Virus record (IMG/VR): IMGVR_UViG_3300042867_001289
Span: 1-64,000 of that record
Reading direction: 5' to 3' (one strand)
DNA: 64,000 bases
Source of the DNA: a virus
Position 1 is the stretch's first letter; every line of letters starts with the position of its first letter. A program made the position numbers and the translations under genes. The notes under the pieces are model-generated. The model searched no databases, was not told the origin of the DNA, and saw nothing but the letters and a program-made list of their open reading frames with translations. This document shows positions 1,540 through 34,896 of this stretch, piece after piece.

Positions 1540-4500
1540 TTAAGCATATTGATCATTCTCAAACATCTTCAAAAGATCATCTGGATCAATATCCGTAACC
1601 TCTTTAAGTCTAGACGCAAGACCATCCGTCAGCCTAGAAAGTTCATAATTAGCATCAAATCTAGCAGCGCCTATTATTCGCCCAATAGCCTCATTTATTT
1701 CCAAAGCAGAATCGGCCTCTCTAAGAGAAGCTTGCGCCGCACGAATAGCAACCAAAATATCAGCCCTACTCAAACTGTCCGAAACACCAGACCGCTCATT
1801 AGCCAAAACCTGCTTAACACGATCCAACATCTCCCTAGTGCCAGATATCATCCCACCCGTTAAACCACCCATCCAATCAGGCTTAACAATCGTATCCCTA
1901 TATTCCATATTGCTCTTGCCGTGATCAATTGGAACAAACCACGCCATATCGCCACTAGGGGTTTCCCCCGTAAAGAAATTACCGCCATGCCGATCCCCAT
2001 TTTGAATAATCAAATCCAAAAGCAAACCAGAAATAAGAGAATCAGCAGAAGCCTCGCTTGGATACCCCGAATCACCACCATGTTCTAAACTTAAAGCATC
2101 AGCAGGATCACCCGAAAGATTCGCATAATTATGCAAAAGCTCAAAAACTATTGGCCTAGCACCCGGATCGTAACCCCTCGGAGGAAAAGCATCAACTGGT
2201 GGAGGTCCGCCCCAACGCATAGACCCGTAAGCAAAACCTAGCCGTTCAGCAACGTGAGCAGCTAAAACCTCGTTAACGTCTTCATTTGGAAAATACGAGG
2301 TACGCTTACCTGCAGCAGTACCATACTTAATGCCGATACGCTGCTGGCTAACACGATCATAAAACATGGCAATACCGTTAAGACCATCACCTTCAATCTC
2401 ATTCAGGGCAATAAACCGACCAGGGATTTCGCCCCCGGACCGTCGTTCAGTACGCATAAGATTAGTTAAAAAATCTTGCAGCTGATCATCTGCTGGTGCA
2501 AACTCAAAATCTGTTAATTCAATAGGGTCACCCGGATATCCCATTAACTGATGTGCCCGATTAATCTCAGCTTGCAAATCATCTTTAATAAGAGCGTTTC
2601 CAAAAATTGCTTGAGCAAGAAAATCGTCAGGAACTTCAGACAAAGCACCGCCACCAGCTAAATGCTCAACTGCCCCATCTGCATCCATGCCACCATCAAC
2701 AACAGGAATTTCAACAGGCAAATGAAAACCCTCAGGGCTCCTAAGACCCAAAACACGGTCTACGCCTTTCACAACGCTACGCCTAGGCATCAAACCCTGA
2801 CGGGCAGGCCTAAGATCCCCACTTGCAGCAACTGACTCCTCGCGAGAAGGACCATCATATTTTGCCACTTTAGGTAAAGTCTTATTAATTTCATCAACAA
2901 GCCCTGCAAGCATTGCTTCATCATCTCTGGAAATATCAGGAATCTGTTCAGCAACCGCCTTCTCACCCTGTTTATAATGATCAACTATTCTTTTTAAACG
3001 CTTATCATCAACATCTTTCATGTACCGTTCCGTGTCATCCATTTTTGATTGGATAATATTCACAACCTCTTGTTCCCGATCCCTGGTACCCACAAATTCG
3101 GCATCGGTCATTAAAGGATTTTCGAATTTAAGAGCAATAGAATCAAGTTCTTTAAAAAGTTCCTGCATACTGGAATCATTTGCAAAAAATCCTGCGTCTG
3201 GGTCCCAGAGCCAGTCTTCACTTTTTTCTCTAAGCGTGCGAAAGAATCTCTGAGCCTCTTTTTCTGTTTCAGTTAAAACAGGCTCAGGATTCTCGGATTG
3301 CCAGATACCTCTAAGAAGTGCCTGGTTTTCATCCCCCCTATCATGAAGATGAGTTTGTATGATCCTCCCAAGTTCTTTCAAAGATTCAATGTCGGAAACA
3401 AGCCCAGACTTCCTAACCTTTCCTATACGCTTGTTATAATCTTCGAGTAAACGGTCAGCCAAACTCTTGTTGCGTTCTTCTTCAGCCTTAACAAATTCGT
3501 CAATTCTATCAAGAATAATTTTAAGCGTGTATTCGTTCTCACCCGGGTTAGTCTCGCCTGCAGAAATATTAGGGATCTGCTCCGTAACGGCTTCATTTCG
3601 TTGATCAAGCCAATCATAGTAAGCATCTCGATTTCGACCCCTAATAGCTATATTAGCTACATCAACGCTCTCCATTTCCTCACCAAAAGTCTTATCTATT
3701 TTTTTAATTTGCGAAATCAGCAAATCGTATTGACGCTCAAGATCTGTCTTTCTTCCTTTTCGGCCAACACGAGTCCCAGCCTTTGAATCTTTTTTCTTTG
3801 CAGCCTTTAAAGCGTCCGCTGCCATAGTGACAAGTCTGGCCCTTTTCTTATTCAGTTCATCAAACTTAGGATCGGTAGCAGAAAATTCTTGCTCCGGCAA
3901 ATCAACAGGTTTAGGATTCTTAGATTCCCAATCAGCTTCAAGAGCTAGCCTATTTTCAGGTTTATTATCATCAAAATAGGCTTGTATAACACTTCTGAAT
4001 TCCTTTAAAGATTCAAGATCAGCAGCTGACCCAGACTCCTCAATTTTTTTTCTTAGCTTGTAATATTCTTCAAGTGACCTATCACCCAAACTTGTGGCTT
4101 TACGAACCCTTGGCTTAGCAGGAACAGGTTTACTAGGGGGAGGGAACTCGCGCTCGCTTATCGGAACAGCAGGAACGTTAAGGTATGGGAACTTCCTTCT
4201 ATCCCCAATGTCTCTGCTCTCCGATATGTACCTTCTGCGAACAGGGCGCTCCCTCTCGCGAGAAATGCCAGGGGTAAGCGGAGAGCGGACCCTACGCGCG
4301 TTTCTCATAACATCAGACCTCCTAGGCGTAGGAGGAACGTCAGGAGTTGGTTCGATAACCGAAAGAGCAGGAGGTACACTGGAGAACCCTTTACGAGGAG
4401 AAAACCTCTCCGAAATCCGCTCCGAAACTAAACCACCATCACCAGGCTCAGAAACCTTATCCGCACTAAAACTAGAAACCTCAGCCACACGAGGCCTATC

Positions 4501-6468
4501 AACAACTCTCCGCATAAAATCAACAAGCGCCTGCCCAGAATCAGAAAGCCCCTCAGTATCAGCATCCAACATCACAGCAGTGAAAGTCTCAGCAAAAGCC
4601 TCTAATTTATTCGTAAGAGAATATTGTGATATCTGTTGATTGACAGGAACATTCATCTGCCTAACAGCCTCAATGAGCCGTTCAGCAGTCGCTTCAGCTT
4701 CCTCGTCAAGGAAACCAGCTTCCCTCTTACGGTCGACCTCTAACCGCATTTGCTTTAGGTTCAACCAGCTTTTTTCAGAATAAGATTCGTCCCAAACCCA
4801 CTGCTCTTGAAGAGCGTCCAACTCTTCAGCGTTTTCACTTTGATAAAAATCCCATTCACCTAAAATGTCTTCCATTTCAGAAAAATAGTTACCTGCCAGC
4901 TGATCCCATTCCCTACTAAGATCAGTAACTGAAACCATAGGCGTAACATTATTATTAATGGCTTCGTGGAATGCATGGCCCATCTCATGAGCAACAGTAG
5001 CTACATGGTCATCTGGTCCACCTTTAACGAGCCAGTCGCCTATGGCCCTTTCAGTGTCCTTAGGTTCTGAGATTAAGGTATAGACACCAGTTTTTGGTTC
5101 AAAGTCATCGACTACCCCAACGGTGATAAAACCCTCGCCATATTGCCCAGAGACACCACCCGCCCAGTGGGAACCAGCATGCGATGCCAAAACCACTGCA
5201 GGAGTAGGATTGTCAAACTTCTCAAAGAGTTGTCCAATTGGAGAATCAGGACCAAATTTGCTTTCAAAAACACTTTGCAGACTCTCGACAAGAGCAATTC
5301 CTTCTGGGGAAGATAATGCTGCTACCGCATTTTCATGACCATACATTTCCCGATGCCGGGCTTCCCAAAAGACATCTAAATCTTTATCTGTTTTTAAATC
5401 AGCATTAGGGGCAACTAAATCTCTTGATTCTCTTTCCTCGTAACCTCGTAAAAATTCATAAAAATTATCAGGATCATCATCCAGGGCTTGTTCAAGAAGT
5501 AACCCATCATAATCCTTATATGTAGAATCTATATAATCACCAATATCATTTAAATCTAATTTACCAGAATCCGATATAGGGGGATTTGAAACCACATCCT
5601 GCCAGGGGATATCTGGATCTAGATCATCAGAAAAAACTATTTCATCAACCTCTCTCGAACCATACCTTTCGAAAGCTGATTGCAATGCTAAACCCTTAAA
5701 ATAATCTACTGCCCAATCAGGTTCATCAACTGTTAATAGATTATATAAAAGCTCTTCAAATTCCCTATCAGGCAACTCATTAAAATGTGAATGCTGCAAG
5801 AGCAATCGATCTCTCATAACTTGCAATCTGCCCATCGCTGCTTCACGAGGCGAAACAGCAAGCCTGGAACGATCCCATATATCTTGATCTTCAGCAAATG
5901 CAGTAGCAATGGCTTGTAGACTTTCACGCGCTAGTTCGACGTCTTGACTAGTTTCCCAGTCTTCATTACCAGATCTGAATTTGGCGTTGAGTCGATCAAG
6001 CCTAGCCTGTACCTCTAATGCCTCAGCTTTAGCTTGCTCTTGCGCCTTTAATTTATCCTCTTCTTCCACTCTAAGGATTTCGTCGAAGTCGGGTTTAGCA
6101 GATCCCTTTTTACGCTTAGCAGGTTTTTTGGGCTTATCAGGCTTTTTGGCTAAAGAAACAAGCTCACGGGCAGGACTATTCTGATCAAGCGGGTTACTCG
6201 AAAGTACACTCCCAGGAACTTCAAGCTTCGGAGTAACAGCATGCTCCTGATTAGTCCCTTCCTGAGCCCTCCCATCATTATCACGGTCCTTGGCATTTGG
6301 ATCGTACACAGCACGACGCAAAAACCTTTTTAACGGATTCCCACTCCCAGCATTACCACCCCGCCTACCAATACGACTACCGCGAAGACCCCTACCCAAA
6401 ATTTTTGATTCAACATCAACAAACAAATCATCGGCTTTTATGTCATCAATGTCAGTACGTTCAAACAT
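1540..6468 (-). CDS. Giant protein with lethal-factor-like metallopeptidase and kinase-fold domains
   Basis: 1642 residues from the ATG at 6468, one base after the preceding stop; a start 30 bases upstream would overlap that gene. Residues 40-70 hold the shared tag (ILGRGLRGSRIG, then DPNAKDRDNDG). A zinc-peptidase signature HEMGHAFHE lies near residue 493 and TNKLEAFAETF near 621; the pair resembles the HExxH and YxxTNxxEFFAEAF elements of the anthrax lethal factor peptidase fold (family knowledge). The centre is long, charged and coiled-coil-like, with two related segments. The C-terminus carries a kinase-like set: IGIKYG (about 1376), NGDRHGGN (about 1488) and PIDHGKSN (about 1512), as in PI3/4-kinase/HipA-like folds. 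No signal peptide. Likely a virion-associated or injected effector; this role is inferred from its place in the head operon. Confidence 0.8.
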   Translation of the reverse strand: MFERTDIDDIKADDLFVDVESKILGRGLRGSRIGRRGGNAGSGNPLKRFLRRAVYDPNAKDRDNDGRAQEGTNQEHAVTPKLEVPGSVLSSNPLDQNSPARELVSLAKKPDKPKKPAKRKKGSAKPDFDEILRVEEEDKLKAQEQAKAEALEVQARLDRLNAKFRSGNEDWETSQDVELARESLQAIATAFAEDQDIWDRSRLAVSPREAAMGRLQVMRDRLLLQHSHFNELPDREFEELLYNLLTVDEPDWAVDYFKGLALQSAFERYGSREVDEIVFSDDLDPDIPWQDVVSNPPISDSGKLDLNDIGDYIDSTYKDYDGLLLEQALDDDPDNFYEFLRGYEERESRDLVAPNADLKTDKDLDVFWEARHREMYGHENAVAALSSPEGIALVESLQSVFESKFGPDSPIGQLFEKFDNPTPAVVLASHAGSHWAGGVSGQYGEGFITVGVVDDFEPKTGVYTLISEPKDTERAIGDWLVKGGPDDHVATVAHEMGHAFHEAINNNVTPMVSVTDLSREWDQLAGNYFSEMEDILGEWDFYQSENAEELDALQEQWVWDESYSEKSWLNLKQMRLEVDRKREAGFLDEEAEATAERLIEAVRQMNVPVNQQISQYSLTNKLEAFAETFTAVMLDADTEGLSDSGQALVDFMRRVVDRPRVAEVSSFSADKVSEPGDGGLVSERISERFSPRKGFSSVPPALSVIEPTPDVPPTPRRSDVMRNARRVRSPLTPGISRERERPVRRRYISESRDIGDRRKFPYLNVPAVPISEREFPPPSKPVPAKPRVRKATSLGDRSLEEYYKLRKKIEESGSAADLESLKEFRSVIQAYFDDNKPENRLALEADWESKNPKPVDLPEQEFSATDPKFDELNKKRARLVTMAADALKAAKKKDSKAGTRVGRKGRKTDLERQYDLLISQIKKIDKTFGEEMESVDVANIAIRGRNRDAYYDWLDQRNEAVTEQIPNISAGETNPGENEYTLKIILDRIDEFVKAEEERNKSLADRLLEDYNKRIGKVRKSGLVSDIESLKELGRIIQTHLHDRGDENQALLRGIWQSENPEPVLTETEKEAQRFFRTLREKSEDWLWDPDAGFFANDSSMQELFKELDSIALKFENPLMTDAEFVGTRDREQEVVNIIQSKMDDTERYMKDVDDKRLKRIVDHYKQGEKAVAEQIPDISRDDEAMLAGLVDEINKTLPKVAKYDGPSREESVAASGDLRPARQGLMPRRSVVKGVDRVLGLRSPEGFHLPVEIPVVDGGMDADGAVEHLAGGGALSEVPDDFLAQAIFGNALIKDDLQAEINRAHQLMGYPGDPIELTDFEFAPADDQLQDFLTNLMRTERRSGGEIPGRFIALNEIEGDGLNGIAMFYDRVSQQRIGIKYGTAAGKRTSYFPNEDVNEVLAAHVAERLGFAYGSMRWGGPPPVDAFPPRGYDPGARPIVFELLHNYANLSGDPADALSLEHGGDSGYPSEASADSLISGLLLDLIIQNGDRHGGNFFTGETPSGDMAWFVPIDHGKSNMEYRDTIVKPDWMGGLTGGMISGTREMLDRVKQVLANERSGVSDSLSRADILVAIRAAQASLREADSALEINEAIGRIIGAARFDANYELSRLTDGLASRLKEVTDIDPDDLLKMFENDQYA

Positions 6469-6783: not shown

Positions 6784-8721
6784 CTATCCAATCCACTTTA
6801 ACAAAGTATCTAGAATCTGGCGTGAACCATCCCGTTGCAGAATAGCTAACCTTGCTTCAGCAATTGTCCGAACAGCATCAAGGTGTTGCAACTCTTCAGG
6901 AGTCAAAATTTTTCCTTTAGAAGAAATCCTATCAGCTGAAACAATTTTACCTAAATCTTCTTCGAGCCGTTCAATAGCCCGATCAGCTGCTTGCTGAAAC
7001 TTTCGACGACGAACCTGAGCTGCACTTGAAGTACCTTTTAAGCCAACACTTAAATGTCTAAAAGGCTTCCTGCATGTTGATGACTCGTAATATTGTTTAA
7101 ACGATTTTGTGCTAGCAGCAGCAAGACCCGAAGAAATGGCGCTCTCCAACCCACGACCACCATATAAAAGACCATGATCGATAAGGCCTAACCTAATCCG
7201 ACCGTCGCTATCCATTCGTGCCATATAATTCCCACCGTGCCGATCAGAATTATCAAAGATGTAATCCAACAAAAGCATCCTAGCCATATCTGAAGGATCA
7301 AGTTTTGTATGATCAGTGAACCCGGCCCGATTCCATTCTTTCCACTTGCCTTCTCGCCCTGCAGCAGGCGTATGATCAAATTCCCACTCTTCTATAGATT
7401 TAACCATCATCCACCGATAAGGCGTAGCGGTCCCTTGCCGTTGAACGTTTTGACCAACCCTAAAATTCTTTTCACTATTACCAAAACCAAGAACCTCAGC
7501 AGCTTTACTCCCAATATTTTCAAGCAAAGAATCATGGTTCCCGAAAGTAGAAACTTTCACATACCAAACACCACCATTTAAGGTATCCGTAACTTGCATT
7601 ACTCTCCAGGGAACATCACGACCTCCAGCCTCATCTTTAATAATCTCAAATTTAAATCTCTGATTCTTAAAACTCACCCCATCACGGAGAAGACCGCCTT
7701 GGCCACTAGCCGTAACAAGATCCTCCTTCGTCAACGTATAACCAGCCAGAGGTCTTCCCAAAATTTCTAAATTTTCGTCAAATAAAACATCAATAATATG
7801 CTCATCAGCAATATCGGTTATATCCCCATCTTTTTCATAAACATGCTTAAGCCCCTTTTCATAATCTTGGATTCCCCATTTCTTAGTACGTCGCGTTTCT
7901 CCGATTTCACCTGGATCAATCCGTCCTGCAAGACGCTCTAATGCCGAAGCAAAGATACGGCGACCAGGGGCATCAGGAGTCTGCACGGCGGGCGGAGCAG
8001 GAGCAGCAGGAGGGGGAGGAGGTGGGTTAGGGGCAGCACGCGAAGCACTAGGAGCAGGAGCAGCACGGCGAGCACGGCGAGCACGGCGAGCAGGAGCAGC
8101 AGGAGCAGCACCCTGGGTCGAACTATCACTACCAGAAACATCAATAGCATTAGCTAGGCGATCAAGTATCCCCACTCTTCTACGAGCAGGTTCGCCACCC
8201 GTGGGAGTAGTCGCCCTGCCAGCAGTTCTAGGACCCATACGGCGACGCACAGCAGCGGCTACGCCACGAGCTCCAGCAGGCCGTTCCCACGGCGTACCAT
8301 CTTGAACCGTATTGTCACTCCCAGGATCACCATTTACAGCATTAGCATCATAACGATCAGCACTACGCCGAATCCTGCCAAAACCCAAAACCTTCTCTTC
8401 AAATCCGTTTAAACGAAAATCAATTGAAGAAATAATTTTCTCGTTATAAAAATCCGACTTACTATCAACAGAATAGTTTTGGTAACTAAGTTTCTGAAAA
8501 TCAGCCCACACCAAATCATCCAAAGGCTCAGGCCCAATAACAACCAACGAAGGATTACTGATCGCCGACTTAATACCCTCTAAAGACGAAGATTCCGACT
8601 CCGACCAAACAGCAAAATCTTTTAACGTACCAGAACCCGCTGCCAAAATATCAAAAGCATGTTCAATCACAATAGCTTTTGAACCAGAAAACGGATCAAC
8701 AATAGTAATAGCATTAGTCAT
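6784..8721 (-). CDS. Kinase-fold protein with intact catalytic motifs, head operon
   Basis: 645 residues. Order: an N-terminal unknown domain (1-105); the tag (VLGFGRIRRSADR followed by NAVNGDPGSDNTVQDG and TPWERPA, about 110-145); an Ala/Pro/Arg-rich low-complexity linker (150-250); and a C-terminal PI3/4-kinase/HipA-like fold. Visible kinase elements are VWYVKVSTFG (lysine near 387), DNSDRHGGN (near 490) and LIDHGLL (near 511), matching the catalytic DRHxxN and metal-binding D of that superfamily. It overlaps the upstream gene by ATGA, so the two are co-translated. Predicted to phosphorylate a protein or lipid; the substrate is unknown. Substitution of the catalytic D or the metal D would test activity. 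Confidence 0.82.
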   Translation of the reverse strand: MTNAITIVDPFSGSKAIVIEHAFDILAAGSGTLKDFAVWSESESSSLEGIKSAISNPSLVVIGPEPLDDLVWADFQKLSYQNYSVDSKSDFYNEKIISSIDFRLNGFEEKVLGFGRIRRSADRYDANAVNGDPGSDNTVQDGTPWERPAGARGVAAAVRRRMGPRTAGRATTPTGGEPARRRVGILDRLANAIDVSGSDSSTQGAAPAAPARRARRARRAAPAPSASRAAPNPPPPPPAAPAPPAVQTPDAPGRRIFASALERLAGRIDPGEIGETRRTKKWGIQDYEKGLKHVYEKDGDITDIADEHIIDVLFDENLEILGRPLAGYTLTKEDLVTASGQGGLLRDGVSFKNQRFKFEIIKDEAGGRDVPWRVMQVTDTLNGGVWYVKVSTFGNHDSLLENIGSKAAEVLGFGNSEKNFRVGQNVQRQGTATPYRWMMVKSIEEWEFDHTPAAGREGKWKEWNRAGFTDHTKLDPSDMARMLLLDYIFDNSDRHGGNYMARMDSDGRIRLGLIDHGLLYGGRGLESAISSGLAAASTKSFKQYYESSTCRKPFRHLSVGLKGTSSAAQVRRRKFQQAADRAIERLEEDLGKIVSADRISSKGKILTPEELQHLDAVRTIAEARLAILQRDGSRQILDTLLKWIG

Positions 8722-29935: not shown

Positions 29936-30172
29936 ATGATCTCTATCGAAGAAGCCCAACTACAGGTGTGGGAATCTATCCAAGCAGTTCTTGTCGACCT
30001 TGCTATTGATGAAGACATTAGCGAAGAAGAACTCCAAGAGCTTGAAGATTCGCTTGGCAACGCTGCCGATCTTATTATTGAAGCTTTAGAGCTAAGGATT
30101 ACAAGCGTCGGTGACGGCACTACAGGAACTGCAGAACTAAACATTTCACCATTGCTCGACATGGAAGCCTAA
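29936..30172 (+). CDS. Small acidic helical protein
   Basis: 78 residues, the only plus-strand gene in a leftward block. Very acidic helices (DEDISEEELQELEDSLG) followed by a beta segment. There is no ribosome site; a TATACA box eight bases before ATG would make it leaderless. Its 3' end overlaps the WhiB-fusion gene by four bases, convergently. No family recognised; DNA-mimic-like charge. Confidence 0.6.
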   Translation: MISIEEAQLQVWESIQAVLVDLAIDEDISEEELQELEDSLGNAADLIIEALELRITSVGDGTTGTAELNISPLLDMEA

Positions 30173-30537
30173 GAGACTAACGTCTTTTTACGGCTCTTAG
30201 CTCTTTGAGCCCGCCGCCTAATCACATAGCATTCTTCAGAACAAATAAACTGATTCCGCTTTACACGAGTGAAGCCCTTACCGCACTGAGCGCAATGCAA
30301 GTTCAGCTGTTTTTCTTCTCTTAGCTTTCTGCGCTCACGGCCTGATGTGCCGCCGTAGATGCCAGCAAATTCTTCTATATTTTCTTCTAAGCAAATATCT
30401 TTAACTGGGCATTCCGCACAGATAGACATTGCCAAATCGGAAGACTCGCCAACACCAGGAAAAAATATGTCTGGTGGGAAATTGCGGCATGCAGCATGAT
30501 TTCTCCATTGATTTTTTTCTTCTACATTTTGAATCAT
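30169..30537 (-). CDS. WhiB-family regulator fused to a zinc-finger-like tail
   Basis: 122 residues. WhiB part: NHAACRN, ICAECPVKDIC, IYGGTSGRERR. After residue 78 it continues with HCAQCGKGFTRVKRNQFICS then EECYVIRRRAQRAK, a treble-clef-like C2-C2 finger with a basic tail. Overlaps the wHTH gene start. The extra finger should add DNA binding to a sigma-binding module. Confidence 0.9.
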   Translation of the reverse strand: MIQNVEEKNQWRNHAACRNFPPDIFFPGVGESSDLAMSICAECPVKDICLEENIEEFAGIYGGTSGRERRKLREEKQLNLHCAQCGKGFTRVKRNQFICSEECYVIRRRAQRAKSRKKTLVS

Positions 30538-30791
30538 TCATTTTCCTTATATAGATTTTCTACAGTGTGAACAGAAACAAGTGGCCGCAGGGTGCCGCTA
30601 AGACCGGCTTGCCACTCTACAAGTCCATGTTTTTTAAGATGAACTAAAGATGCATGCGCCGAGGCCACCGAACAACCTGATAGTTCTGCCGCTTTACGAA
30701 TAGTCACCCGACGCTCCTTGCCGTAAATGTGTATTACAGCAATGAGCACGCGAATAGAAATGTCAGACAGGTAGGTTCGACTTAGCGTCAA
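30534..30791 (-). CDS. Winged-helix DNA-binding protein
   Basis: 85 residues. VTIRKAAELSGCSVASAHAS then LVHLKKHGLVEWQAG is a winged helix-turn-helix. It sits between the deacetylase-like gene and the WhiB fusion with 4-base overlaps on both sides, so the enzymes and two regulators form one operon. Confidence 0.82.
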   Translation of the reverse strand: MTLSRTYLSDISIRVLIAVIHIYGKERRVTIRKAAELSGCSVASAHASLVHLKKHGLVEWQAGLSGTLRPLVSVHTVENLYKENE

Positions 30792-31708
30792 GCCATCTCG
30801 CTAACTTTTGACCACGCTTCCACGGTCAGTAGGTGCAGGTTTACAAGCCCGTCCCAGGATAGGCCTTGATCGACAATAACACCGTTATACCATCGCGGCT
30901 GAGACAAGTACCCACCAGCAAGCGCAAAGATGCCCTGTCGCCCCTGCATAAATTCTACGACTAACCTCTCACGCTCGGCGAGCATCTCGTAGGTTATGCC
31001 TTCGTCGTATGGGTCCATGCCAGCGTTGTAGATAACAAAATCCCAGTCACGATCGCAGTATGACAAAGCGCTATTGATATCGTCTAGGTATTTGAATCGG
31101 TCAGAAATAACCAATCTGTTATCAGAGGTATCACGCTTATCGTCCCAGACGTCAAAGGGTGTGACTGTTACGTCGCATTGGACAACGCCCTTCCAGTTAT
31201 CGCCTTGGGAGTTCATGATGTCCATTGTTCCGCCACCAGCGTGGGCATCAAAATCAAGGACAAGGATTCGCTCTGCGCCATGTCGGCGTGCAGCAAAGAC
31301 TGAGGCCGCTAACCCGTTGAACGTGCAGTATCCTGCTCCCCTTGAGTAGGAAGCGTGATGCAACCCTGAGGACAGTGAGCCTGCCCATTGTCCACCGGAT
31401 TCAAGAACGTGCGCAGTAGCGTCAACTAGCCCCCTGGAATGGGCAACGGCCATCGTGTAGATGCCATCATCCCATGTAAATCCAGATGATTCGGAAAGAC
31501 TTCTTGGTGTGCCACTTTGAATTGCTTCAATGTAGCCAAGATCATGAATTTGCGCCAAGCATCGTTCGACGCTGATATCTGAAGGAGCAATAAGCTCTGC
31601 TTCAGGGCAGCGACCATCCATAATGGCTTTAGCTACCTTTGCTGATTTGCGGGTTGTGTCAAATGAGTATTCGCACGCGTTGTATCGTTCATCGTAATAA
31701 ACATGCAT
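30788..31708 (-). CDS. Histone-deacetylase-superfamily amidohydrolase
   Basis: 306 residues. The whole fold is visible: MHVYYDERYNACEY start, SSGLHHASYSRGAGYCTFNG (active-site His pair and Tyr/Cys loop), VLVLDFDAHAGGGT-type zinc motif (LDFDAHAGGG, near 152) and IYNAGMDPYDEG (second Asp, near 230). Such zinc hydrolases remove acetyl groups from lysine or polyamines. Start overlaps the phosphatase stop (TAATG). Rare in phages; the target is unknown. Confidence 0.9.
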   Translation of the reverse strand: MHVYYDERYNACEYSFDTTRKSAKVAKAIMDGRCPEAELIAPSDISVERCLAQIHDLGYIEAIQSGTPRSLSESSGFTWDDGIYTMAVAHSRGLVDATAHVLESGGQWAGSLSSGLHHASYSRGAGYCTFNGLAASVFAARRHGAERILVLDFDAHAGGGTMDIMNSQGDNWKGVVQCDVTVTPFDVWDDKRDTSDNRLVISDRFKYLDDINSALSYCDRDWDFVIYNAGMDPYDEGITYEMLAERERLVVEFMQGRQGIFALAGGYLSQPRWYNGVIVDQGLSWDGLVNLHLLTVEAWSKVSEMA

Positions 31709-32238
31709 TAGAACGAACCTCCGATGCCGTATGAGGCACCTTCAGGTGCACGGTCAAAGTTGAGTGCAAAATTAGCAAGCGAGCCTGACTTGAGACCGAA
31801 ATGGGTTTCAATGTGGCCAAGCACAAGACCGTTAGGGCAGAACCATTGATCTGCTGGGTGGATCTCAGCAAGCTTTTCAATAGCCTCTTTGGGGGCTACT
31901 CCACGGGCGATTGAGACGCCGATGGCTGTTGCCGTTGAGCGTGAAATCCCTGCATGGCAGTGGATCAAGATGGGCTCGTTGGTCTTTGCACCGAACTTAA
32001 CCAGCTTTTTGACTTGGCTGAAAGTGGGTGCCCAGATGCTTGATACGTCTTCTGTGTCACCAAACTTTTCGATGCAATGGTTGGGGTGCTCCCAACGGAC
32101 TTCGCTGGGTGAAGGGCCTGCAGTGATTACTGCAGGGAAGTATGGGGCGAGCAGTGCTGCATCCTGAATACCTCTGACTGTCGGCATTGCAATGCCTTTG
32201 TAAATTGTTGTGCTTTGGGTTTCTTTAGTATTGTTCAT
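31708..32238 (-). CDS. Dual-specificity/tyrosine phosphatase-like protein
   Basis: 176 residues. ILIHCHAGISRSTATAIGVS has the HC-x5-R phosphate loop of cysteine phosphatases, preceded by an Asp-containing loop region (KFGDTEDVSSIW). The C-terminus is Gly/Ser-rich. First gene of a leaderless operon with the deacetylase-like enzyme and two regulators. Could dephosphorylate host proteins or oppose the phage kinase-fold proteins (inference). Confidence 0.88.
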   Translation of the reverse strand: MNNTKETQSTTIYKGIAMPTVRGIQDAALLAPYFPAVITAGPSPSEVRWEHPNHCIEKFGDTEDVSSIWAPTFSQVKKLVKFGAKTNEPILIHCHAGISRSTATAIGVSIARGVAPKEAIEKLAEIHPADQWFCPNGLVLGHIETHFGLKSGSLANFALNFDRAPEGASYGIGGSF

Positions 32239-32245
32239 AGTTAGT

Positions 32246-32274
32246 ATTGTAAACCATCCTAGTTAGTTTGTCAA
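32246..32274 (-). promoter_or_regulatory. Leaderless promoter of the phosphatase-deacetylase operon
   Basis: TTGACA (32269-32274), 17 bp, TACAAT (32246-32251); ATG (32238) begins seven bases after the -10 box and there is no ribosome site. Confidence 0.85.
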
Positions 32275-33391: not shown

Positions 33392-33420
33392 ACTATACAT
33401 GCTATTGAGGCACCTGTCAA
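33392..33420 (-). promoter_or_regulatory. Promoter of the DUF932 gene
   Basis: TTGACA, 17 bp, TATAGT; leader with AGGAGC upstream of ATG 33359. The -35 lies one base from the tRNA 3' end. Confidence 0.85.
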
Positions 33421-33785: not shown

Positions 33786-34370
33786 TTAACCTGTAAAGCT
33801 AATTTGGGCAGGCGCTAGTTGTACTTCCACTTGAGTTTCCACCTGAATGGCAGCTGGGATAGTTGTAGTAGTTCTGGGGATAGTGGTCGTCGGAACAGCC
33901 GTACTTGTTGTTGTGGTCCTTGGAATTGTTGTACTTGTGGTAGTCGTGGTAGGTGCTGTCGTGCTAGTTGTTGTACTTGTGGTAGTCGTGGTCGTCGGAA
34001 CAGTCGTGCTCGTTGTGCTTGACGTACTCGTTGACGTAGTCGTAGTCGGGTTTACCGGCTTACAGCCATTCCCCCAAATCGCTTGACCCTCCGCGTCCCA
34101 ATTCAGGCCACTATGAATTCCAGCAATCGGCGGAATAATATCATCGGGGTGATTCAAATAGTGATCGCCCTGACCGCTGTCGTTCCCTGCGTCGCCATCA
34201 ACGGAATCCTGCGCCACGGTGAGACTGACAAACGGATTCGACTCCGAGCTCGTCGCATGACAGATATCCACCTTCTCACGATCAGGCGTAGCCGAAACAG
34301 CCCCAGTTAGGCTAAGCAGAACAAAGCCAACAGCGAAGACGGTTATAACAACCAAAGAAAGCTTTTTCAT
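33786..34370 (-). CDS. Secreted Thr-rich protein
   Basis: 194 residues from ATG 34370. A signal peptide (MKKLSLVVITVFAVGFVLLS) is followed by a module starting REKVDICHATSSESNPFVS and ending in DHYLNHPDDIIPP, a domain seen in many actinobacterial surface proteins. Then comes a Thr/Ser/Pro stretch of about 70 residues and a short valine/glutamine tail (QVETQVEVQLAPAQISFTG). Probably host-derived and exported; role unknown. Confidence 0.85.
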   Translation of the reverse strand: MKKLSLVVITVFAVGFVLLSLTGAVSATPDREKVDICHATSSESNPFVSLTVAQDSVDGDAGNDSGQGDHYLNHPDDIIPPIAGIHSGLNWDAEGQAIWGNGCKPVNPTTTTSTSTSSTTSTTVPTTTTTTSTTTSTTAPTTTTTSTTIPRTTTTSTAVPTTTIPRTTTTIPAAIQVETQVEVQLAPAQISFTG

Positions 34371-34396
34371 TAATATTTTTCCTTCCAAAAAGAGAC

Positions 34397-34482: not shown

Positions 34483-34896
34483 CTAACAAGGCTTTGGCGG
34501 ATAATGCCAAGGGCTGCGACCGATATTCTCCAAAGTCCAGATAGCTACAGCGTCCTGCACATGAGGAGGAGCTGAACGCGCCGTCGCATAACCTCTATGT
34601 CCTGCGCGAGCCGACAGATTCCGCCAACTGCTGTCAAGGAATTGATACGCTCCAGATGCCGTGCTCGAAGGATTCTTCGCCGAATAATTATTGCCCGACT
34701 CCCGATTCCGAACACACGCCAAAAACCCCCCAGGAGGACTATGAACAGGCTTATTAGACGCCACAAGATGCTGACGAACAGCTTCCTGCTCAACCGTATT
34801 CATCGTGTGGTAAAGAGCTACTTCCTCAGGCGTGCAGGCCGCTACAGATCCAACAACCAATACCGAAAAAACTACAACTCTCATAAATTTGAACAT
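34483..34896 (-). CDS. Rpf/transglycosylase-like lipoprotein
   Basis: 137 residues. The N-terminus has a signal ending VVGSVAAC (lipobox), then a helical spacer and a lysozyme-like core: FLACVRNRESGNNYSAKNPS and SGAYQFLDSSWRNL with the catalytic Glu of resuscitation-promoting-factor-like hydrolases. It may cut or remodel peptidoglycan at lysis or entry. Upstream lies a 130-bp gap without a clear promoter. Confidence 0.87.
   Translation of the reverse strand: MFKFMRVVVFSVLVVGSVAACTPEEVALYHTMNTVEQEAVRQHLVASNKPVHSPPGGFLACVRNRESGNNYSAKNPSSTASGAYQFLDSSWRNLSARAGHRGYATARSAPPHVQDAVAIWTLENIGRSPWHYPPKPC

Follow-up and report, generated by a model that had tools for sequence, protein, structure and literature searches.

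A phage operon pairing a phosphatase with a divergent HDAC-fold enzyme whose bacterial relatives lie beside ADP-ribose genes

The core of the phage operon described here is a pair of genes encoding a phosphatase and an enzyme of the histone deacetylase (HDAC) fold. By its fold, this enzyme (hereafter, the HDAC) is a divergent member of the classical-deacylase superfamily; its active site is not that of a standard deacetylase. The pairing of the two genes is strongly favored, not obligate. The HDAC family with this type of active site, in which glycine occupies position 159, is apparently undescribed. Tentatively, we interpret the operon as an eraser module directed against modifications made by the host, probably those linked to NAD+ or ADP-ribose.

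Results

Operon organization and phage origin

The window, i.e., the whole stretch of DNA analyzed, covers positions 1-64,000 of a virus record of 128,048 bases. The operon consists of the following elements:

32274-32246, minus strand: predicted leaderless promoter, sigma70-like TTGACA-17-TACAAT, with the -10 box ending 7 nt before the ATG (32238)
32238-31708, minus strand: phosphatase of R-P (rhodanese-phosphatase)/DSP type, 176 aa, with P-loop HCHAGISR (C94, R100) and D61
31708-30788, minus strand: HDAC-fold enzyme (classical deacylase), 306 aa, with D154, H156, D232, H117/H118, Y267, and Gly159
30791-30534, minus strand: predicted winged-helix DNA-binding protein, 85 aa; its TTG start overlaps the HDAC stop
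30537-30169, minus strand: WhiB domain with a C-terminal Cys4 finger, 122 aa

The open reading frames confirm that the four genes overlap end to start, as was originally proposed; the phosphatase, HDAC, winged-helix, and WhiB genes are successively joined through TAATG, TTGA, and ATGA. The WhiB domain is identified by PF02467 (E 3e-15, above cut-off), and its arrangement with the Cys4 finger is covered lengthwise by the phage family phrog_1333. The winged-helix protein gives weak IclR-type matches only. Judging from the WhiB protein and from the HDAC tree, the host of the phage is probably an actinobacterium.

A strong leaderless promoter, the other structural element of the original prediction, is likewise predicted from sequence in our analysis. 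The promoter scan alone returned 6 sites versus 4.4 ± 2.4 by chance; because this count is close to chance, the real support comes from conservation in the phage contig L002, whose HDAC shares 82% identity with that of the window. The L002 promoter, TTGACA-17-TATAAT, retains the spacing and the same ATG, and no Shine-Dalgarno sequence is present near the phosphatase start in either the window or L002. Similar leaderless geometry precedes the phosphatase in L127, L129/L131, L118-L126, L137-L139, L149/L151, L153, L155, and L167, while L105-L110 have a Shine-Dalgarno leader instead.

Three other features of the minus strand of the window deserve mention. A second strong promoter, TTGACA-17-TATAGT (33392-33420), directly follows tRNA-Met and precedes a DUF932 gene. 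A putative secreted protein (33786-34388) has a long Thr-rich repeat tail, the length of which differs between the window and L002. A small lipoprotein-like protein (34483-34896) carries an Rpf/transglycosylase-like motif (ESGNNYSAKNPSSTASGAYQFLDSSWR).

Bacterial chromosomes carry HDAC relatives, which favors the view that the operon is a stretch of host sequence fused to a phage contig, or a decayed remnant. This view is nevertheless exceedingly improbable. The same operon, within the same flanking phage genes, is found in other viral contigs at 82-100% HDAC identity, and the window contains terminase, portal, and prohead protease genes. An origin from host DNA at an assembly junction, the check attached to the original prediction, thus fails, since independent phage contigs carry the same block. 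Nor has the operon decayed: the dN/dS ratios between the window and L002 are 0.14 for the phosphatase, 0.07 for the HDAC, and 0.14 for the winged-helix gene, and all three genes are under purifying selection. Orthologs of the winged-helix and WhiB genes occupy the same place in L002. The complete four-gene form is confined to the window, its 100% copy L001, and L002. At other loci, the pair is followed by different genes, and the four-gene form is therefore rejected as a ubiquitous unit.

An HDAC fold with an altered active site

The HDAC matches PF00850 above cut-off (E 6e-20). Its AlphaFold2 model, built from 69 family sequences, has a mean pLDDT of 94.6 and is best matched by Vibrio cholerae HdaH (VcHdaH; 9gkv; VIA Z 34.9 over 279 residues, 2.1 Å, 22% identity), followed by Leptospira HDAC11 (9gz5; Z 33.4), a bacterial HDAC11 bound to fatty acid, and by ApaH structures (Z about 32). 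The zinc ligands D154, H156, and D232, the His pair H117/H118, and the oxyanion tyrosine Y267 are invariant in the 69 sequences.

In classical deacylases, as Graf et al. 2024 (PMC11532494) describe, an Asn or Asp orients and polarizes the second His of the pair (D183 in HDAC8, N186 in KpHdaH). In the phage enzyme this partner is replaced by Gly159. Glycine is found at this position in 155 of 160 family members, whereas canonical HDAC paralogs found alongside them in bacterial genomes carry Asn or Asp there. The family is further marked by the signature DxDAHCGGGT and by an L1 motif of its own, FDTTRK. The Asn/Asp-to-Gly replacement raises the question of what allows the general base to work in an HDAC fold that lacks this partner.

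L018 (5677-6552) and L019/L020 (5779-6666) encode a second, divergent type of phage HDAC that has kept the Asn/Asp; in L018, a dCMP-deaminase-like gene lies next upstream of it.

The phosphatase and its pairing with the HDAC

The phosphatase, with P-loop HCHAGISRST, matches Pfam DSPc just under cut-off (E 1e-6). Both the HCx5R P-loop and an upstream acidic Asp are present; C94, R100, and D61 are invariant in 19 sequences, and D61 is likely to be the general acid. The phosphatase model (pLDDT 89) matches dual-specificity phosphatases (DSPs), with a VIA Z of 12.1 to 4yr8 (131 residues, 3.0 Å). Domain matches, models, and catalytic residues thus agree that a phosphatase and an intact HDAC-fold enzyme are encoded together in one phage operon, as originally predicted.

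In at least 33 viral loci, which represent 22 distinct loci at 95% HDAC identity and 10 at 70%, the gene immediately upstream of the HDAC encodes a phosphatase with the motif HCHAGxSRST. An independent search based on the phosphatase placed an HDAC within about 105 bp in 36 of the 65 phage loci among the matches listed. The same search returned about 28 phage loci with the phosphatase but no HDAC, some of them in phages closely related to paired ones. Conversely, an adjoining phosphatase is missing from many phage HDAC loci. These locus counts, as well as those given for bacteria below, are samples of scan matches and not totals. The notion of an obligate two-step pathway is weakened by closely related phage groups in which the phosphatase lacks its HDAC partner. 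Examples of the phosphatase with no HDAC after it are L197, L204, L207, L212, L218, and L230; in L197 and L204, the genes after the phosphatase are similar to the ones found after the HDAC in paired relatives.

No phosphatase relatives were found among 50,697 phage records. NCBIfam has no model for the phosphatase-HDAC pair, and the anti-phage defense models of PADLOC 2.0 gave no match for the pair or for its bacterial neighbors at E 0.01. The phage phosphatases (HCHAGxSRST) and those found with the HDAC in host genomes (HCHMGxNRAPS) are only distantly alike, with 16% identity in the P-loop region. Since the host phosphatase belongs to an R-P subfamily different from that of the phage, the partnership of HDAC and R-P phosphatase may have arisen more than once. 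One viral contig, L116, encodes a host-type R-P phosphatase (3294-4001; HCHMGINRAPS), whose gene precedes the HDAC gene by about 2 kb.

Distribution and phylogeny of the HDAC family

HDAC relatives are encoded by 242 IMG/VR contigs and by 416 contigs in the GTDB genome set, of which the best 80 from each source were analyzed. The IMG/VR contigs are uncultivated, and some are possibly mis-binned. Among annotated phages, the sole full-length relative is gp202 of Rhodococcus phage E3 (42.7% identity over 97%), for which we found no functional work in the literature searched; Staphylococcus phages also appeared among the matches of this search. On phage HDAC-fold enzymes, our literature search returned annotations and sirtuins only. 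Deacetylases of this fold had been described as rare in phages, which holds for cultured phages, with one annotated case, but not for the uncultivated viruses, given the 242 contigs that encode relatives.

In a FastTree phylogeny, computed with no bootstraps and containing no named AcuC or ApaH references, the window HDAC falls into a well-supported, mostly viral clade interleaved with Acidimicrobiia and other Actinomycetota. The interleaving indicates that the gene has been exchanged between phages and these bacteria.

Gene neighborhoods differ among the phage HDACs. In L132, L144, L147, L160, L162, and L168, the HDAC (near position 6000) follows ThyX and a HAD-type gene (HAD_SAK_2, RNA-repair-like). 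The HAD_SAK_2 match in L144 is sub-threshold in Pfam. With the HAD-type gene, this clade has a gene of another phosphatase superfamily near the HDAC. In L003, L010, L013 (HDAC near 6000), and L117 (near 2000), the HDAC is directly 3' of a ParB-like gene and is followed by helix-turn-helix-like and PAPS-reductase-like genes; L003 has a second ParB-like gene.

Gene context of the bacterial relatives

An ADP-ribosylglycohydrolase (ARG; PF03747) gene is located within about 1.1 kb of the HDAC in 8 of 79 bacterial loci (L031, L036, L055, L067, L070, L076, L088, and L096). With 23 strong matches in about 97 Mb, ARG averages roughly one copy per genome, from which we calculate a chance expectation of about 0.13 such loci. 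Even when only five independent lineages are counted, the chance probability is of the order of 1e-7. The arrangements include the following:

L055, L076: NrtR, ARG-vWA fusion, R-P phosphatase, HDAC
L067, L088: R-P, ARG, R-P, HDAC
L036 (planctomycete): ARG overlaps the HDAC stop
L031: ARG-R-P fusion
L070: ARG-R-P-Macro fusion beside the HDAC, the Macro domain scoring above the NCBI cut-off for O-acetyl-ADP-ribose deacetylase

In addition, vWA genes adjoin the HDAC in four Mycobacteriales loci, and ARPP-1 is near it in six bacterial loci, in two of them more than 1 kb away or in a downstream frame. A SIR2 domain is encoded near the HDAC in L035 and DUF1810 in L025.

A different context characterizes eight betaproteobacterial loci (L042, L050, L051, L054, L056, L057, L058, and L066), in which an HDAC cousin closes an operon for a PotABC-like ABC transporter, adjoining or following the transporter genes. 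The best NCBIfam names of the transporter genes are PotA, PotB, and PotC; of these, only potA scores above the cut-off of its subfamily model. In the tree, this Pot-linked clade is distinct from the phage HDAC clade.

No ARG, Macro, or NADAR genes were found in the 18 phage records searched, including that of the window. The link of the phage pair to ADP-ribose is therefore one of kinship and context only.

Discussion

In the eraser module that we propose, a single leaderless, translationally coupled mRNA would yield a phosphatase and a zinc hydrolase, and then two small regulators. Cys94 of the phosphatase would attack the phosphate, with Asp61 as the likely acid. In the HDAC, Asp154, His156, and Asp232 would hold Zn2+, while His117/His118 and Tyr267 would activate water and steady the intermediate. 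Together, the enzymes may strip a phosphate and an acyl-type group from host-marked proteins or from molecules derived from NAD+ or ADP-ribose. The phage may thus have taken over two parts of host ADP-ribose clean-up systems. Since the phosphatase is able to act in the absence of the deacylase, the two would be partners rather than obligate consecutive steps.

The lines of evidence that speak for an eraser module are the invariant catalytic residues, the quality of the HDAC model and its match to VcHdaH, the adjacency of the pair from both search directions, and the location of bacterial kin beside ARG, R-P, Macro, vWA, ARPP-1, and NrtR. Against it stand the lack of ARG, Macro, and NADAR genes in the phage records searched, the distant relationship of the phage and host phosphatases, the loci with one enzyme and not the other, and the betaproteobacterial clade alongside Pot-like transporters. 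Our preference for this reading is tentative. A bolder version, which we consider unlikely, is that the HDAC represents a new class of HDAC-fold enzymes with a rebuilt catalytic dyad (Gly replacing Asn/Asp), whose hydrolytic targets are ADP-ribose derivatives of acyl or ester type, or ADP-ribosyl adducts; bacteria would use it with ARG, R-P, and Macro proteins, and phages would use it together with a phosphatase to disarm NAD+-derived defense signals or tags.

The main alternative to the eraser module involves no ADP-ribose step: the phosphatase would remove phosphate from proteins, and the HDAC would remove acetyl or longer acyl groups from lysine. The closest structures are indeed VcHdaH, a lysine de-decanoylase according to PMC11532494, and the fatty-acid-bound HDAC11. 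Moreover, the phosphatase model resembles protein DSPs, and the two genes are separable, as expected of independent erasers. However, Gly159 is unlike the residue in every lysine deacylase compared, and the bacterial kin lie beside ARG far more often than expected (8 versus about 0.13 loci). We regard this alternative, the strongest rival, as somewhat less likely than the eraser module. Remodeling of host protein phosphorylation had originally been tied to kinase folds encoded elsewhere by the phage, a tie that comes down to one sub-threshold PI3/PI4-kinase match in the head-gene block. That match (E 4e-4) is in a 645-aa protein (6784-8721, minus strand), which is probably the "kinase fold" originally meant. 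A phage acetyltransferase partner was also considered and rejected, all GNAT matches being sub-threshold; a weak one falls within a frame of 730 aa in the half of the phage record beyond the window (G000:C1:112288-112515).

Less likely still than lysine deacylation, and in our opinion improbable, is an acetylpolyamine deacetylase serving polyamine needs of the phage or host. ApaH is among the close folds, and the eight betaproteobacterial cousins accompany PotABC-like operons, which lends the original suggestion of polyamine metabolism some support from a sister bacterial clade. That clade is, however, not the phage clade, and the surroundings of the phage HDAC copies showed no polyamine gene. 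ApaH (cluster 4) is a head-to-head dimeric enzyme of 341 aa with an extended L2 loop conferring polyamine specificity (PMC11532494). Its hallmarks of chain length and L2 loop are absent: the phage chain has 306 aa, its L2 loop in the model comprises only residues 73-82 (10 residues) with no insertion in the family alignment, and no conserved Glu gatekeeper follows the third zinc ligand. The polyamine suggestion is accordingly weakened. Hydrolysis of an acylated nucleotide, an RNA end, or a modified base appears more doubtful yet. It would fit the phage clade with HAD_SAK (RNA-repair HAD) and ThyX genes ahead of the HDAC, the clade in which the HDAC sits between ParB-like and PAPS-reductase-like genes, and the ribonucleotide reductase gene found a few genes from the HDAC in many phages; but such neighbors vary between clades, and we saw no pathway for DNA hypermodification in the window.

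Whichever substrate applies, the family is a large and apparently unnamed one, spanning hundreds of viral and bacterial contigs and tied to ADP-ribose clean-up operons. The phosphatase partner in phages, together with the ADP-ribose context, offers a testable route to the roles of HDAC-fold enzymes in bacteria and phages. The same route bears on how phages answer host responses based on NAD+ or ADP-ribose.

Comparison with known systems

The sirtuins (Sir2/CobB) of KVP40-like Vibrio phages, proposed to change host proteins (PMC5107563), are phage-borne enzymes of deacetylase type, as is the HDAC described here; the sirtuin fold is unrelated and NAD+-dependent. The gp202 protein of Rhodococcus phage E3, annotated as a putative histone deacetylase, belongs to the same family as the phage HDAC, but, unlike in the window, there is no phosphatase beside its gene. 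VcHdaH and HDAC11-like enzymes (cluster 5; PDB 9gkv/9gky, 9gz5) have the same fold, zinc ligands, His pair, and oxyanion Tyr; the phage HDAC differs from them in its 22% identity, Gly159, the FDTTRK and DxDAHCGGGT motifs, and its operon setting. With ApaH it has in common the HDAC fold, not the longer chain or the extended L2 loop described in PMC11532494.

A parallel in gene content is provided by the ARG-centered host systems, built of NrtR, ARG, R-P, vWA, and ARPP and predicted to undo viral ADP-ribosylation (Iyer et al. 2022, PMC9503650). No HDAC-fold member is named in the text of that paper. The phage operon differs from these systems in that it has no ARG, NrtR, or ARPP and has the winged-helix and WhiB proteins in place of a Nudix (NrtR) or WYL regulator. 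A phosphatase of the R-P superfamily, although of a different subfamily, is common to these systems and to the phage pair, and the bacterial relatives of the phage HDAC sit inside such gene sets.
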